Source: Acidobacteriota bacterium
GTDB taxonomy: Bacteria; Acidobacteriota; Terriglobia; Bryobacterales; Bryobacteraceae
Assembly: GCA_025354525.1 (NCBI GenBank)
Contig: JANXMS010000196.1
Location: 1-32,582, forward strand
DNA length: 32,582 nucleotides
Direction: 5' to 3'
Each line of letters begins with the position of its first letter. Position 1 is the stretch's first letter. The translations under genes were made by a program, and so were the position numbers. The notes beneath the pieces are model-generated. The model did not search any database, was not told where the DNA came from, and saw only the letters and a list, made by a program, of their open reading frames with translations. Below, one piece after another: positions 22,436 to 27,700 of this stretch.

Positions 22436-22839
22436 ACCACCAATGCTAGCGTTTCTACGTTGAGGATGATTTCCGGGGTGACGAGGAGGGTGTTTTTGAC
22501 GAGGCACTTTTCGGCGGTGCGGCGGACACCTTCGAGGTGGGCGGGGTCAGAGACTTGGGGGATGACGACGCGGATGGCGAAGCGGCCGAGGCGGGCGGGG
22601 GCGGTGGCTTTTTCAGCGTCGACGAAGACTTGCATGCCTTTGGCGGGGAGGTTGTTGCGGCGGAGGTATTCAGCGGCGTAGTACATGGCGCAGGTGCCGA
22701 GGGAGGCGAGGAGGAGTTCGGGCGGGGTCATGCCTTCGTCAGTGCCGCGGTTTTCGGTGGGCTGATCGACGATGATCTGGTGGCCACGGGTTTCGGCGAC
22801 GCAGCGGGCGTCGGTTTCGTAGGTGACTTTGCAGGTCAT
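22432..22839 (-). CDS. OsmC/Ohr-family peroxidase
   Basis: This 135-residue protein has the OsmC fold. The catalytic cysteines are C50 in 'MTPPELLLASLGTCAMYYAAEYL' and C112 in 'RTAEKCLVKNTLL', at the usual spacing. These enzymes reduce organic hydroperoxides using lipoyl or thiol reductants and often respond to envelope or oxidative stress. ATG 22839 was chosen because MTCKVTYETDARCVAE is the normal N-terminal strand; the open frame runs on to 23262 as shadow of the divergent gene. It is the first gene of a two-gene operon with the ECF sigma factor, whose GTG overlaps this stop. Confidence 0.9.
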   Translation of the reverse strand: MTCKVTYETDARCVAETRGHQIIVDQPTENRGTDEGMTPPELLLASLGTCAMYYAAEYLRRNNLPAKGMQVFVDAEKATAPARLGRFAIRVVIPQVSDPAHLEGVRRTAEKCLVKNTLLVTPEIILNVETLALVV

Positions 22840-22926
22840 AACGGGGTAGATGCAGGCGGTGGTGGAAACGTGACAATCAGGGGAGAAAGTTCTCGATGGC
22901 GGGCCACTTTCTATTTGAAGCGGCCA
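22840..22926. promoter_or_regulatory. Divergent region OsmC / Rpn gene with inverted repeat
   Basis: This 87-bp gap between divergent genes contains a 7-bp inverted repeat, AGAAAGT (22884-22890) with ACTTTCT (22906-22912). It could be a regulator-binding site or a short stem in the Rpn leader. No clear -10/-35 pair was found. Confidence 0.4.
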
Positions 22927-23775
22927 ATGCCCCAGAATTTTGACGTTACTTTCAAAGCGCTGTTCCTTCGTTCGAGTGGGATATTCGTCCGCCAGCTCTG
23001 CGGAGAGATTGTCGGTTGGCAGAATGTGGAACAGCCGACTGTGACCAACCGTCGAGCCGACCTTCTGGCGCGGTGCGTGGACGGATTTCTGCGTCACATT
23101 GAGATTCAGCTTTATAACGAAGCGGCGATTCCGTTTCGGATGGCTGAATATTACGTTGGCTTTTTTCGTCTGTTGAACGAGCACGTGATCCAGATTCTGC
23201 TCTACGTGGGCCGGGAACCGCTGCGCATGCCTTCGGTGTTCCTCACACCGGCCATGCGGCATGAGTACAGGATTGTCAATCTCCGCGAGATGGACGGAGA
23301 GGAACTGCTGGCGAGCGATGACTGGACGGATAACGAATGGGCGCTGCTGACGAAAACGGATCCTGAACGAGTGATTCGGGTGGTGCTGGAAAAGCTGGAC
23401 CGGATGAATGGCGAAGAGAGACAGGACGCGACCGCGACGTTTCTTTTGCTGGGTGGCATACTGGGAATAGAAGAAGATCTACGGAGCAGGATAAACAACC
23501 CAATGATCGATGTGATGCAAAACAAAGTGCTAGGCCCGCTGGTGCGGGAGCAAATTGAGGCTGGTCACAAGGCGAGTCTTGAGATGGGGCGGCAGGAGGG
23601 ACGGCAGGAGGGGTTTCGATCCCTGTTCCGTCAACTGGTGGAACAACGCTTCGGCCCTCTACCGGCTTGGGCGGCGGACTGCATCGCTGCCGGTTCCGCT
23701 GAGAACATTAAGGAGTGGAGCTTGGCCTTGTACGACACCAATTCGCTTGAGCTCCTACTTCGGTCGAAAATTTAG
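22927..23775 (+). CDS. Rpn-family PD-(D/E)XK nuclease/putative transposase with DUF4351-like tail
   Basis: This 282-residue protein belongs to the Rpn/transposase_31-like group. The nuclease core shows D45 in 'RRADLLARCVDG' and the 'HIEIQLYNE' strand (E59-x-Q61), a PD-(D/E)XK variant. 'AIPFRMAEYYVGFFRLL' and 'EHVIQILLYVG' follow. The C-terminal third starts at M193 ('MIDVMQNKVLGPLVREQIEAG'). It contains a charged 'RQEGRQEG' coiled coil and the DUF4351-type motif 'RFGPLPAWAADCIAAGSAENIKEWSLALYDTNSLELLL'. Rpn proteins cut DNA and promote RecA-independent recombination; roles in phage defence are reported for some. AGGAT lies 11 nt before the internal ATG 23503. The C-terminal third is duplicated three times downstream. 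Confidence 0.88.
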   Translation: MPQNFDVTFKALFLRSSGIFVRQLCGEIVGWQNVEQPTVTNRRADLLARCVDGFLRHIEIQLYNEAAIPFRMAEYYVGFFRLLNEHVIQILLYVGREPLRMPSVFLTPAMRHEYRIVNLREMDGEELLASDDWTDNEWALLTKTDPERVIRVVLEKLDRMNGEERQDATATFLLLGGILGIEEDLRSRINNPMIDVMQNKVLGPLVREQIEAGHKASLEMGRQEGRQEGFRSLFRQLVEQRFGPLPAWAADCIAAGSAENIKEWSLALYDTNSLELLLRSKI

Positions 23776-23822
23776 TTGGAAAGATTGTGGCCGGGTTAGA
23801 CCGAACTAGGATCCATAACCCA

Positions 23823-24137
23823 ATGATTGACGTGATGCAGAACAAGGTGCTGGGCCCGCTGGTGCGGGAGCAAATTGAGGCTGGTCACAAGGCGAGTCTT
23901 GAGATGGGGCGGCAGGAGGGGTTTCGATCCCTGTTCCGCCAGCTGGCGGAACAGCGCTACGGTCCTCTACCGGCTTGGGCGGCGGACTGCATCGCTGCCG
24001 GTTCCGCTGAGAACATTAAGGAGTGGAGCTTGGCCTTGAACGACACCAATTCGCTTGAGCTCCTACTGCGGTCCAAGGTTGAGTTTGAAAGATTGTGGCC
24101 GAGCTCGGCTGAGTTAGGATCCACAACCAATGATTGA
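23823..24137 (+). CDS. Free-standing Rpn C-terminal unit 2
   Basis: This 104-residue protein repeats the Rpn tail: 'MIDVMQNKVLGPLVREQIEAGHK', one 'RQEG' instead of two, and 'RYGPLPAWAADCIAAGSAENIKEWSLAL'. The start is ATG 23823, with AGGAT upstream as in the parent gene. The TAG that ends the parent copy has changed to GAG, so the protein runs about 14 residues further, to 24137. No nuclease domain is present. If translated, it would be a separate copy of the putative dimerisation/inhibitory tail. An in-frame GTG at 23787 is an alternative start. Confidence 0.7.
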   Translation: MIDVMQNKVLGPLVREQIEAGHKASLEMGRQEGFRSLFRQLAEQRYGPLPAWAADCIAAGSAENIKEWSLALNDTNSLELLLRSKVEFERLWPSSAELGSTTND

Positions 24138-24391
24138 TGTGATGCAGAGCTAAGGTGCTGGGCCCGCTGGTGCGGGAGCAGATCGAGGCCGGGATCAAGG
24201 CAGGTTCTGAGAAGGAGCGGCAGGAGGGGCGGCAGGAAGCCCTCCGTCAGCTGGCGGAAAAACGCTACGGTCCTCTGCCGGCTTGGGCGGAGGCCCGGAT
24301 CGCTGCCGGTTCCGCTGAGAACATTAAGGAGTGGAGCTTGGCCTTGTACGACACCAATTCGCTTGAGCTCCTACTTCGGTCGAAAATTTAG
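24130..24391 (+). pseudogene. Rpn C-terminal unit 3, frameshifted near start
   Basis: ATG 24130 reads MIDVMQS and then hits TAA, because an extra base (CAGAGCTAAGG versus CAGAACAAGG) shifts the frame. From GTG 24155 the rest is open for 78 residues: 'MLGPLVREQIEAGIKAG', 'ERQEGRQEALRQLAEKRYGPLPAWAEARIAAGSAENIKEWSL', ending at 24391. It may be dead, or it may be translated from the GTG, though no good ribosome-binding site precedes that codon. Confidence 0.7.
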
Positions 24392-24438
24392 TTGGAAAGA
24401 TTGTGGCCGGGTTAGACTGAACTAGGATTCATAACCCA

Positions 24439-24714
24439 ATGATTGACGTGATGCAGAACAAGGTGCTGGGCCCGCTGGTTCGGGAGCAGATTGAGGCCGG
24501 GATCAAGGCAGGTCTTGTTAGACATGAGCGGCTGGAGGCAGGGCGGGTAGCCCTAACCATCGTGTTCCGTCGGCTGGCGGAAAGACGCTACGGTCCGCTT
24601 CCGTTTTGGGCGGAAGTTCGCATTGCCGGGGCCTCCGCCGAAATGCTTATCGGAAGGGCTGTCGCCCTGGATGACTCCGAGTCGCTCGAATCCCTGATCG
24701 GATTCGAGTACTAG
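24439..24714 (+). CDS. Free-standing Rpn C-terminal unit 4
   Basis: This 91-residue protein starts at ATG 24439 with AGGAT upstream. It begins 'MIDVMQNKVLGPLVREQIEAGIKAG', then diverges: 'RHERLEAGRVALTIVFRRLAERRYGPLPFWAEVRIAGASAEMLIGRAVALDDSESLESLI'. The DUF4351-like motif positions are preserved despite many changes, which suggests constraint on the protein or an older origin. The TAG at 24712-24714 overlaps the convergent TonB-receptor 3' end by 4 nt. No nuclease residues are present. Confidence 0.72.
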   Translation: MIDVMQNKVLGPLVREQIEAGIKAGLVRHERLEAGRVALTIVFRRLAERRYGPLPFWAEVRIAGASAEMLIGRAVALDDSESLESLIGFEY

Positions 24715-27700
24715 AAGATTAGCTTCAGGCCGAGTTGGACGATGCGGGCGTCGCGGGCGGAGTTGACGGTTCCGAAGGTGGAGCTGCGGTTTTTGCCGTC
24801 GGTGCCGGGGACGAAGTTATCGTCGGCGAGGCCGAGATTGACGTGGTTGGCGATGTTGAAGGCCTCGGCGCGGAATTCGACGCGGAAGCGCTCGGCAACG
24901 GTGGTGGACTTCAACAGGGAGATGTCGAAGTTGATGGCACCGGGGTGGCGGACGTCGGGAGTAGTACGGCCGACGTTGCCGAGTTCATACTCGGGCGGGT
25001 TGACGAAGACGTCGGTGCGGAACCAGTTGGCGCGGGTGGGATGGTCGACCTTGGCGCTTTGGCCGGTGGAGTTGGGGCGATCAGCGGCGAAGTTGTTGGC
25101 ACCACGGACGGTAAGGGGAATGCCGGTCTGGATGACGTTGATCATGTTGACTTGCCAGCCGCTTACGATTTTATTGAAGACGAGGTTGGCGGGATTGAAG
25201 AGCTTGCCGCGGCCGAAGGGGAGTTCGTAGAGGAGGCTGATGACGCTGCGTTGGGAGACGTCGGCGGGGTCGACGGACTTGTTGAGTTGGCGGTTGGTGA
25301 GGCTGTCTTGGAAGCCATTATCGTTCGTTTGTTCGACGGGACCGAAGTCGACGGGGACGGAGACGCCGTCACTCATTTTCTTTCCGCCGGTGAAGGCCCA
25401 ATGGACGAGGAGGCCGCGGGCCATGCGGCGCTTGACGTTGATTTGGAGTTGATGGGAGAGGTAGTTGCCGTAGCGGGGATTGCGGACGGAGACGCCCTGA
25501 TAGTGCGGGTAGGGTAGGAGGGAGCGTTCGCGAGAGATGGTGGCGGCGCCGAGGCCGCCTGGGACTTTGCCGACGAGGGGATTGGGCAGAACGTCCTGGA
25601 GCGTACGGCCGAGTTGTTGGCGGACGGCCGGGGTGAGGGTGTTGAGGTTGTATCCGCTGGACGCGAAGTGGTTGCCTTTATTGCCGGCGTAGGTCAAGTC
25701 AATCAGCCAGCCGAAGAGTTCGTGTTGCAGCGAGAGGTTCCACTGCTGGGTGAGGGGGGTCGTGGGATCGTCCTCGGTGAGGCTGACGCCTTGACCGAGG
25801 AGGGCGTTAGGGCCAGCATTGGCACCGGGGGATTCGAGGGGGGCGGAGGGGAAGCCCTGGGCAAAGCGGAAGGCGCGTTGGCCGGGTCCGAGGGCGGCGT
25901 AGTTGGTGGAGGTGGTGGTGAATAGCTGGGTATTGCCGAGGAAATTGCGCCAGAAGACGGGAGGATAGAAGACGCCGTAGCCGCCGCGGAGGACGGTTTT
26001 GGAGGTGCCGAACAGGTCCCAGGCGAAGCCGAAGCGGGGGCTGAAGTCGTTGTAATCCTCTTTCAGGAACGTTCGGGGTTGGCCGTCGAGGCCGGCAAAG
26101 ACGGTTCGGCCGCGGAAACCGGAGACGGGATCGATGGCGGTGAGATGGAAGTTGATTTGGCCGTTGTTGCGTTCGTAGGGTTTCTGCTGGAAGTCATAGC
26201 GTAGGCCTAAGTTGAGAGTAAGTCGGCGGTTGACTTTCCAATCGTCCTGGACGAAGACACTGGAGGAGAAGCCGACCCAGGTGTTGCCGAGGATGCGGTC
26301 GATGGACGCGCTGGAGACTTCGCCGAGGAGGAACTGGGCGAGGCCGGAGCCCGTGGCGGCGGGCACTTGGGGGTTGGTGGTTAGGCCGCCGAAGGCAAAG
26401 TTGCCGGAGAGGGCGGCGCCCTGTTGGTTGCCACCTTGGAGGAGGCGGTGGTTGTAACCGAGTTTGATGGTATGGCTTCGGAATACTTTAGTGAGGGTGT
26501 TTTGGATGTCCCAGTTGAGGGAGCCGCGGGTGCCGGCCGCGCCGCCGCCGACTTCGCCATAGCCGAAGTTGATGAGGGGCATTTGGTCGTTGGGGACGAT
26601 GGAGGGGAGGCCGAGTTTGCGGGGCCAGTTTTGGTTGAAATTCGCGGCGACAAAGACGAACGATTGGCGCATGATGCCGACGCGGAGATCGTTGATGAGG
26701 GTAGGCGAGAAGGTGTGCGTATCGCTGACGACGGCGTTGCGGTTGAGCTGTTCATCGAAGCGATTAGCACCGGCGGTGGGATCGAGGAAGTAGGAGTCGG
26801 CGGAGGTTTTGTGTTGGGCGGAGGTGTAGCGAACGAACATGGAGTTGCGGTCGGAGAAGCGATGGTCGCCTTTGACGTTCCATTGCGTCCAGTCGATGAG
26901 GCCGCGGCCGGCGTCCTGAAAGTTCTGGGCTTGGGTGAGGGCGTTTTGGGGGGTGCGATTGGGGAGGGGCCAGAGGTCGACGATTTTGGGAGCGATGGAA
27001 TCGAAGCGGCTGCGGGGGACTTGGTTCGCGGGGAACTGATCGCGGAGTTGGCCGGTGCCGGTGGGATTGTTGCGGGTGGTGGCGGGATCGTAGACGGGGA
27101 TTTGGGCACCGGCGACGGTAAGGAGGTTGGAAAAATCACCGGTGCGCCAGTTGGCTAAGGGGACGGTGGCGATGCGGGGGGAGCTGCGGCGGGATTTGTA
27201 ATCTTCGTAGTTGAAGAAGGCGAAGGTACGGTCTTTGCGGATGGGGCCGCCGATGGTGCCACCGTATTGGTTGTAGCGGAAAGGGAGTTTGTTGGGGGAG
27301 TAGGTGTTACGGGCGTCGAACTTGTCGTTGCGGAGGAACTCGTAAAGGGAGCCTCGGAATTTGTTAGTGCCCGACTTAGTAACTAAGTTGATGGTGCCGC
27401 CGGCGGTGAAGCCGAATTCGGCGGACATGGTGCCGGACTGGACTTTGAACTCTTCGACGGCGTCGACGGCGGGGGGAACGCCGACTTCGCCGACGTAGCT
27501 GAGGATGTTGTTGGAGCCGTCGAGCATTTGGGCGTTCATGGAGTTGGGGCTTCCGTTGATGGAGATGGACGAGATTTGGATGCCGCGGTCGCCGAAGCCG
27601 GAGTTGGTGGGGCCGGCGTTGGAGATGACGCCGCTCGTGAGGAGAGTGAGGGCGAGGGCGTTGCGGCCGTTCAGGGGGAGATCGCGGACGCGGCGGTTTT

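Follow-up and report, generated by a model that had tools for sequence, protein, structure and literature searches.

Tandem copies of the RpnS-type 3' end of an Rpn nuclease gene in an Acidobacteriota bacterium and their helix length mismatch with the parent gene

Introduction

Rpn genes encode a toxic nuclease (RpnL) together with a C-terminal antitoxin, RpnS, which is made from an internal start and inhibits RpnL (Zhong et al. 2023, PMC10327210). According to the main text of that paper, separate rpnS genes also lie downstream of E. coli rpnE (ypaA) and of rpnC and group with their respective parents, and YpaA is made as a protein, a tagged form having been detected. The same text describes rpn gene arrays formed by tandem duplication, states that RpnS is annotated as DUF4351 in some species and that rpnS can be lost via deletion or fusion, and reports that one four-residue repeat added to RpnCS abolishes inhibition. 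It also refers to the EcoR124I/II type I restriction enzymes, in which two or three TAEL repeats alter specificity. Left open there are the reasons for the variation in repeat number and the origin of copies that lie apart from the nuclease gene.

Here we describe a stretch of 32,582 nucleotides from an Acidobacteriota bacterium (GenBank assembly GCA_025354525.1, contig JANXMS010000196.1), hereafter called the window, in which the gene for an Rpn nuclease, an enzyme of the phage-defence type, has three copies of its own 3' end behind it. As in the E. coli pairs rpnE-ypaA (rpnES) and rpnC-rpnCS (PMC10327210, main text), a putative internal start goes together with a free C-terminal copy that follows immediately in the same orientation, and the copy of E. 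coli rpnE likewise opens with the sequence that codes for KERLM in the parent and includes the ribosome site. However, the E. coli rpnE and rpnC loci examined have one copy, whereas the window has three, with a weak ribosome signal and in a distant family. The rpn arrays of the same paper share with the window the tandem direct duplication of rpn DNA, but there it is rpn genes that are duplicated and here the C-terminal third only. With EcoR124I/II the likeness is that the number of four-residue repeats would set specificity in both, there through DNA-target spacing and here through protein-protein recognition.

The array had at first been taken to be of a kind not described before. This view has to be given up in the light of the downstream rpnS genes and rpn arrays in PMC10327210: the kind is known, as single copies in E. 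coli, and three copies make the largest array among the matches listed. A run of three rpnS copies was not found in the main text of that paper, supplement aside, and among the papers listed on Rpn, RpnS, DUF4351 and YhgA, including those from 2023 on, titles and abstract openings gave no other report of such copies.

Results and Discussion

Structure of the array

The array was confirmed: ~95 codons from the end of the Rpn gene at 22927-23775 recur three times downstream (Table 1). The copies are tandem direct repeats on the same strand, with unit starts at 23488, 23808, 24116 and 24424 and a spacing of 320, 308 and 308 bp, in agreement with the original prediction that the last third of the gene is repeated three more times about 310 bp apart. 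Tandem Repeats Finder reported 23497-24497 with a period of 308, 3.2 copies and a score of 1461, against 52 for the runner-up array in the window, and chance is therefore excluded as the origin of the repeats. The repeated segment matches what Zhong et al. (PMC10327210, main text) call RpnS, the short C-terminal form that had been predicted to be amplified here.

Table 1. Features of the Rpn gene and its downstream units (positions in the window)
Feature	Position	Strand	Remarks
Full-length Rpn-type nuclease (RpnL), 282 aa	22927..23775	+	ORF; putative PD-(D/E)XK residues D45, E59, Q61
AGGAT and internal ATG (23503), putative intragenic RpnS start	23488..23505	+	Read in the sequence; anti-SD -4.1
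Unit 1, putative intragenic RpnS	23503..23775	+	90 aa; internal starts kept in relatives
Two GRQE four-residue repeats, helix 1 of unit 1	23587..23610	+	Alignment; helix length 43
Spacer between units 1 and 2	23776..23807	+	Nearly identical to spacer 24392-24423
Unit 2	23808..24137	+	ATG 23823; helix 39, one GRQE fewer; stop lost, 18 extra residues
Unit 3	24116..24391	+	Frameshift 7 codons into the frame of ATG 24130; GTG 24155 sole start of an open frame; helix 39
Spacer between units 3 and 4	24392..24423	+	Weak likeness to 3' end of convergent gene (24715-24740)
Unit 4	24424..24714	+	ATG 24439, 91 aa; diverged tail; helix 44 (off the four-residue register)

The 12-nt difference in unit spacing is one GRQE repeat absent from unit 2. 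Reading of the ORFs confirmed the open frames claimed for units 2 and 4, that of unit 2 continuing because the parent stop TAG has become GAG, which adds 18 residues up to 24137. In unit 3 a 1-nt insertion turns the frame from ATG 24130 into MIDVMQS-stop; the start formerly assigned to this unit, 24155, does open a frame, but its codon is GTG and the conserved ATG is the frameshifted one.

The window units share conserved heads, and units 1 and 3 agree almost perfectly in tail and spacer, with 39 of 40 and 23 of 24 identical columns in the last two alignment windows. Because of this near identity, the array has most likely been recently reshuffled, and of its copies one would be a probable unit, another a possible one and the third damaged. 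Its copy number and mosaic structure are provisional, since the genome is a draft assembly (633 contigs, 7.3 Mb) and units 1 and 3 share ~125 nearly identical bases. The likeness between the spacer of units 3 and 4 and the 3' end of the convergent gene (24715-24740) amounts to 13 of 18 matching columns, which is suggestive only, as is the idea that the tail of unit 4 is the ancestral gene end.

Upstream of the array lie an OsmC-like gene and a sigma factor gene on the opposite strand, and downstream a convergent outer-membrane receptor-like gene. A search of the same genome found only the four places of the array and one paralogue (L006, C335), which is matched from residue 98 on. An origin from an insertion sequence was discarded, as 22500-25500 contains just one inverted repeat, a pair of 20 nt that lies within units 2 and 4 and not at the ends. 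A non-coding RNA was discarded for lack of Rfam matches in the window at gathering cut-offs, and a known defence model because the parent, unit 2 and unit 4 have no PADLOC match; a coding-independent DNA repeat was set aside, since the four-residue register and the dN/dS values across the family argue against it. No sigma-70-type promoter was predicted in 22800-24800, and the one terminator-like site (24767-24786) lies outside the array, shuffled sequence giving more such sites.

Assignment of the parent protein

The window parent carries D45, E59 and Q61, which we take to be the PD-(D/E)XK catalytic residues of the Rpn family (COG5464/TIGR01784). All three are invariant in an alignment of six relatives; in an alignment of 27 members E59 is invariant and D45 is conserved in at least 90%, Q61 being in neither conserved list. 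The TIGR01784 profile gave the window protein a sub-threshold E of 0.026, while 21 of the 27 aligned family members reached E<=0.001. For DUF4351 (PF14261), that level was reached by 11 of the 27 members, with sub-threshold values for the parent (E 0.014) and unit 3 (E 0.012). Units 2 and 4, the latter formerly said to keep a DUF4351-type motif, had no DUF4351 match up to E 0.1. The structure model of the window protein (mean pLDDT 57.6) is too poor for fold comparison, Foldseek returning nothing at E<=0.001 with it, and a profile search of PDB sequences gave only three matches, at E 0.31-0.7, which were taken as chance. The protein is filed here as a predicted member of the Rpn family on the evidence of its relatives.

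The internal start

The AGGAT signal is present ahead of the conserved ATG in all four units, with a spacer of 9 nt in unit 3 and 10 nt in the others, within the predicted range of 9-11 nt. As an argument for a selected start it is weak: in the parent AGGAT..CCAATG is read as the codons R I N N P M, and as parent coding sequence it would be kept in each unit without any need of selection on a ribosome site. The anti-SD pairing is also weak, with -4.1 in the parent and -4.0 in units 2 and 4. Across the family the internal starts averaged -9.1 kcal/mol (78 parents with a single candidate ATG), against -2.6 for 435 ATGs of the nuclease domain; when the best of several candidates was scored instead, in 105 of 106 parents, the values were -9.3 against -2.5 for 415 control ATGs. 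The window lies at the weak end of this range, with 96% of the 105 parents at -5 or lower. As judged from this pairing, the predicted start of an intragenic RpnS is conserved across the family and is weak in the window.

The free units of the relatives have a ribosome site weaker than that of their parent in 11 of 15 cases (for example -2.4 against -10.9 in L164 and -1.7 against -6.7 in L170) and equal to it in four, and their putative expression is therefore in doubt. Strong sites are retained by some units, those of L154, L122, L085 and L083.

Free units in related genomes

Matches were found in 18 of 19 genomes of the genus and in 69 of 237 of the family, the window's own genome included. 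At the class level 39 of 399 genomes gave a match, and no cluster larger than that of the window appeared among the matches listed, where the next-largest is L170 (G217:C12), with two units, the first of them frameshifted. From the 120 stretches taken we obtained 108 ORFs with nuclease domain and tail, of which 106 have a measurable helix.

A search for tandem DUF4351 frames downstream of other Rpn genes had been proposed with the original prediction. Among 101 related Rpn genes with at least 400 nt downstream, 21 had a same-strand tail match within 700 nt, and after setting aside two that are the next full-length genes (L183) tail-only copies were found in 19 of 101, which is not an unbiased frequency since the loci of relatives are matches listed by E-value rank. 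These 19 are made up of the window itself, a further 15 loci of relatives where the unit is full-length, and three where there are remnants (L118, L175 and L096). On the opposite strand no tail copy occurred within 700 nt downstream of the 101 genes. A scan upstream gave tandem genes of full length in L116 and L183 and a single match, weak and partial, in L113. In L072 and L073 an RpnS-like domain lies upstream in frame with a full Rpn, outside the count of that scan because it belongs to the same stop-to-stop ORF as the parent, and for this reason the downstream bias is not absolute.

No nuclease domain alone adjoining a parent was found in searches with the nuclease part around 97 parents. 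These searches matched whole tandem genes (L116, L183 and L079, the last with its second copy split, which are the full-length tandem genes of the relatives) and one sequence 2.4 kb away at the end of a stretch (L147). They also matched fragments in the vicinity of L072, L073 and L075 and, in the units of L122 and L182, the 5' part. In the tree the window units group with their own parent, and so do the units of 13 of the 15 relatives (support 0.72-1.0), as expected of independent origins; the units of L069 and L074 pair together, nearest the full-length tail of L068. Another 20 loci were kept out of every count. They include a parent and unit one repeat apart (L209), a repeat-less pair equal by eye (L211) and two full-length genes without an adjacent tail-only copy (L219, L227), the rest being broken or lone parts.

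Helix length of units and parents

Helix 1 contains variable four-residue repeats, an RpnS trait: glycine is the commonest residue of the profile at 209 and at each fourth position thereafter up to 229, and the distance N199-F242 equals 3 modulo 4 in 100 of 106 parents. The helix of the unit differs in length from that of its own parent in 14 of the 15 relatives (by multiples of four in 13 and by 13 residues in L070), where L069 and L074 represent the same orthologous case; in L086 unit and parent are equal, and without repeats. In the window, units 2 and 3 each have one repeat fewer than the parent, and unit 4 is one residue longer.

The same was observed in E. coli, where rpnE and ypaA differ in eight of nine loci, always by a multiple of four between 4 and 20 residues (L196 being equal), and the repeat segment differs between rpnC and its copy in eight of eight. 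These loci were picked from 40 spread rows for each gene for an actual or possible second copy, and they amount to eight rpnE loci plus K-12 and to eight rpnC loci, L198 having been dropped because it is cut beside an IS2 transposase gene; the aligned tails are identical in L189 and L192 and in L202 and L208. In K-12, rpnE and ypaA are one repeat apart and RpnE is annotated as inactive, while rpnC (L200) has no annotated downstream copy. The K-12 record labels ypaA (L189:3317-3502) a pseudogene, though the tagged protein has been detected (PMC10327210, main text).

At dS below 0.5, the helix was equal in none of nine parent-unit pairs against four of seven pairs of syntenic orthologues (Fisher 0.019), the latter sharing genomes, and so not being independent, and having dS measured over the whole protein. 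These comparisons show that the helix lengths of unit and parent are uncoupled. Active avoidance of a matching length does not follow from them: two parents agree in helix length by chance with a probability of 0.117, and 0 matches in 14 has a probability of 0.18 under simple independence. The helix can change very fast, as in the syntenic full-length orthologues L152 and L168, which have 67 and 55 residues, three repeats apart, at dS 0.09.

Because one added repeat abolishes RpnCS inhibition (PMC10327210, main text), most free copies should not block their neighbour. The original prediction had put forward extra antitoxins, that is, cognate copies that raise the dose of RpnS and hold the nuclease off. 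This would agree with the production of the ypaA product and the inhibition of RpnL by RpnS reported in the same text, as well as with the strong ribosome sites of L154, L122, L085 and L083. However, it goes against the mismatch in 14 of 15 relatives and in the rpnE and rpnC loci, and against the effect of a single repeat on RpnC; in the window itself each unit is off by a repeat or by a residue. We consider extra dose an improbable explanation.

Selection or decay

The ratio dN/dS was below 0.5 in all 15 intact parent-unit pairs of relatives (median 0.23), which were chosen as intact; L118, L175, L096 and L073 had been dropped, as had the first unit of L170, which is frameshifted. Between the free units of L069 and L074 there are 21 differences at 64 synonymous sites and two at 200 nonsynonymous sites (Fisher 1e-12; dN/dS 0.02), which for that locus is strong evidence, at the level of substitution patterns, that the free unit behaves as a gene. 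The intact free-standing copies of the relatives thus look like conserved genes.

Within the window, units 1 and 2 differ at 13 of 62 synonymous and 4 of 196 nonsynonymous sites (dN/dS 0.08). When polarised with units 3 and 4, the changes specific to unit 2 are five synonymous, two nonsynonymous and the stop loss, and those specific to unit 1 are six synonymous and two nonsynonymous, which are too few to decide on selection there. The dN of unit 4 to the paralogues L006 and L064 (0.331 and 0.337) is about equal to that of unit 1 (0.316 and 0.340), and this equal distance speaks for a long constraint on unit 4, the helix of which is now off register.

Accordingly, the statement that the copies are not simple debris holds for the intact copies of relatives but less well for the window, where unit 3 is damaged and unit 2 has lost its stop. 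Here the copies could be functionless, as decaying by-products of slippage or unequal crossing-over. Such decay would account for these lesions and the off-register helix of unit 4, for the mere remnants in L118, L175 and L096, the degenerate copy in L073 and the frameshifted unit in L170, and for the weak ribosome sites; the low dN/dS of the intact pairs, above all the 0.02 between L069 and L074, and the dN of unit 4 argue against it. Decay seems to us possible for the window, if rather doubtful.

Units that are conserved yet mismatched would also fit decoys or sensors, which might capture a phage inhibitor of RpnS/RpnL tails or neutralise an RpnL of another repeat number, from paralogues or incoming alleles. 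Most genomes of the genus have several Rpn matches, and the helix length of units 2 and 3 (39) equals that of the same-genome paralogue L006, but the helix residues of L006 are unlike those of the two units. We know of no phage inhibitor of RpnS/RpnL tails, and this role appears unlikely.

Possible exchange of tails

The loci L068, L069 and L074 are syntenic and 87-95% identical over ~6 kb. In L069 and L074 a nuclease with tail A (helix 23) is followed by a free unit B (helix 43), and in L068 the nuclease has tail B and there is no free unit. Two genomes thus have as a free gene the same tail sequence that forms the C-terminus of the nuclease in a third. The dS between the tail B of L068 and unit B is 0.56-0.58 and that of the N-domains 0.66-0.68, against 1.2-2.2 between A and B, and since the dS of tail B is close to that of the N-domains, B is orthologous by descent. 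The simplest reading would be an ancestor with the order N-A-B, from which L068 lost A by deletion between the heads, with in-frame fusion of B; the alternative is an import of A into the lineage of L069 and L074, and the direction of the L068 event is one that we infer.

We propose that the window contains a nuclease toxin-antitoxin gene of the RpnL/RpnS type, of which the 3' end that codes for the antitoxin would have been duplicated in tandem three times. If the repeat number sets RpnL-RpnS recognition, the copies would add no dose against their own neighbour; the free units could then be made as RpnS proteins of other specificity, perhaps also acting in trans. Recombination at the conserved unit head could swap the tail of the nuclease, which would change the toxin and its intragenic antitoxin in one step. 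The conserved heads of the array and the matching tails of units 1 and 3 support tails of alternative specificity, as they are what recombination within the array would give. On the other hand, the recognition rule is known from one protein, RpnC (PMC10327210, main text), which weakens the explanation. On balance, tails of alternative specificity are favoured over extra antitoxin dose, and for the window, where function is deduced from sequence, we give them about an even chance. The best candidate for a working copy there would be unit 2, unit 4 being possible and unit 3 probably not one.

In a broader form, downstream rpnS arrays in general would be a switching system, in which spare translatable C-termini of other dimerisation specificity are kept under selection and swapped by deletion or conversion at the head with the internal start, the mismatch in repeat number preventing them from silencing the active nuclease; this we put forward tentatively, as a possibility that may well fail. 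In polymorphic toxins such as Rhs and MafB, orphan C-terminal cassettes lie downstream of the toxin gene and are exchangeable by recombination. Those cassettes carry the toxic domain, whereas the cassette of the window would be an antitoxin or dimerisation domain, and the likeness drawn here is one of layout. Since most downstream copies are mismatched with their neighbours, in Acidobacteriota as well as in E. coli, established assays in K-12 hosts could test what these copies do. Should the spares prove to be exchangeable tails, the system would be a gene-within-gene toxin-antitoxin pair that alters both partners by one recombination step.

Other arrangements

Some loci of the relatives show other arrangements. 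L210 (2618-3620, minus strand) has two tail-like ORFs 0.7 kb apart that differ by 8 residues in the repeat helix, and the nuclease-domain profile finds no Rpn nuclease domain in this stretch. The Rpn gene is split over at least two frames in L131, L132, L137, L139, L144, L145, L153, L164, L170 and L179, by decay, by assembly errors or by something programmed. In L187 (3635-4828) and L188 (1277-2524), ORFs of 398 and 416 aa have an RpnS-like domain in frame upstream of a full Rpn, perhaps as a fused or upstream antitoxin. Finally, L183 (2062-4683, minus strand) carries three full-length Rpn genes in tandem, two of which have 100% identical tails, while the third tail is 91% identical and has one repeat fewer.
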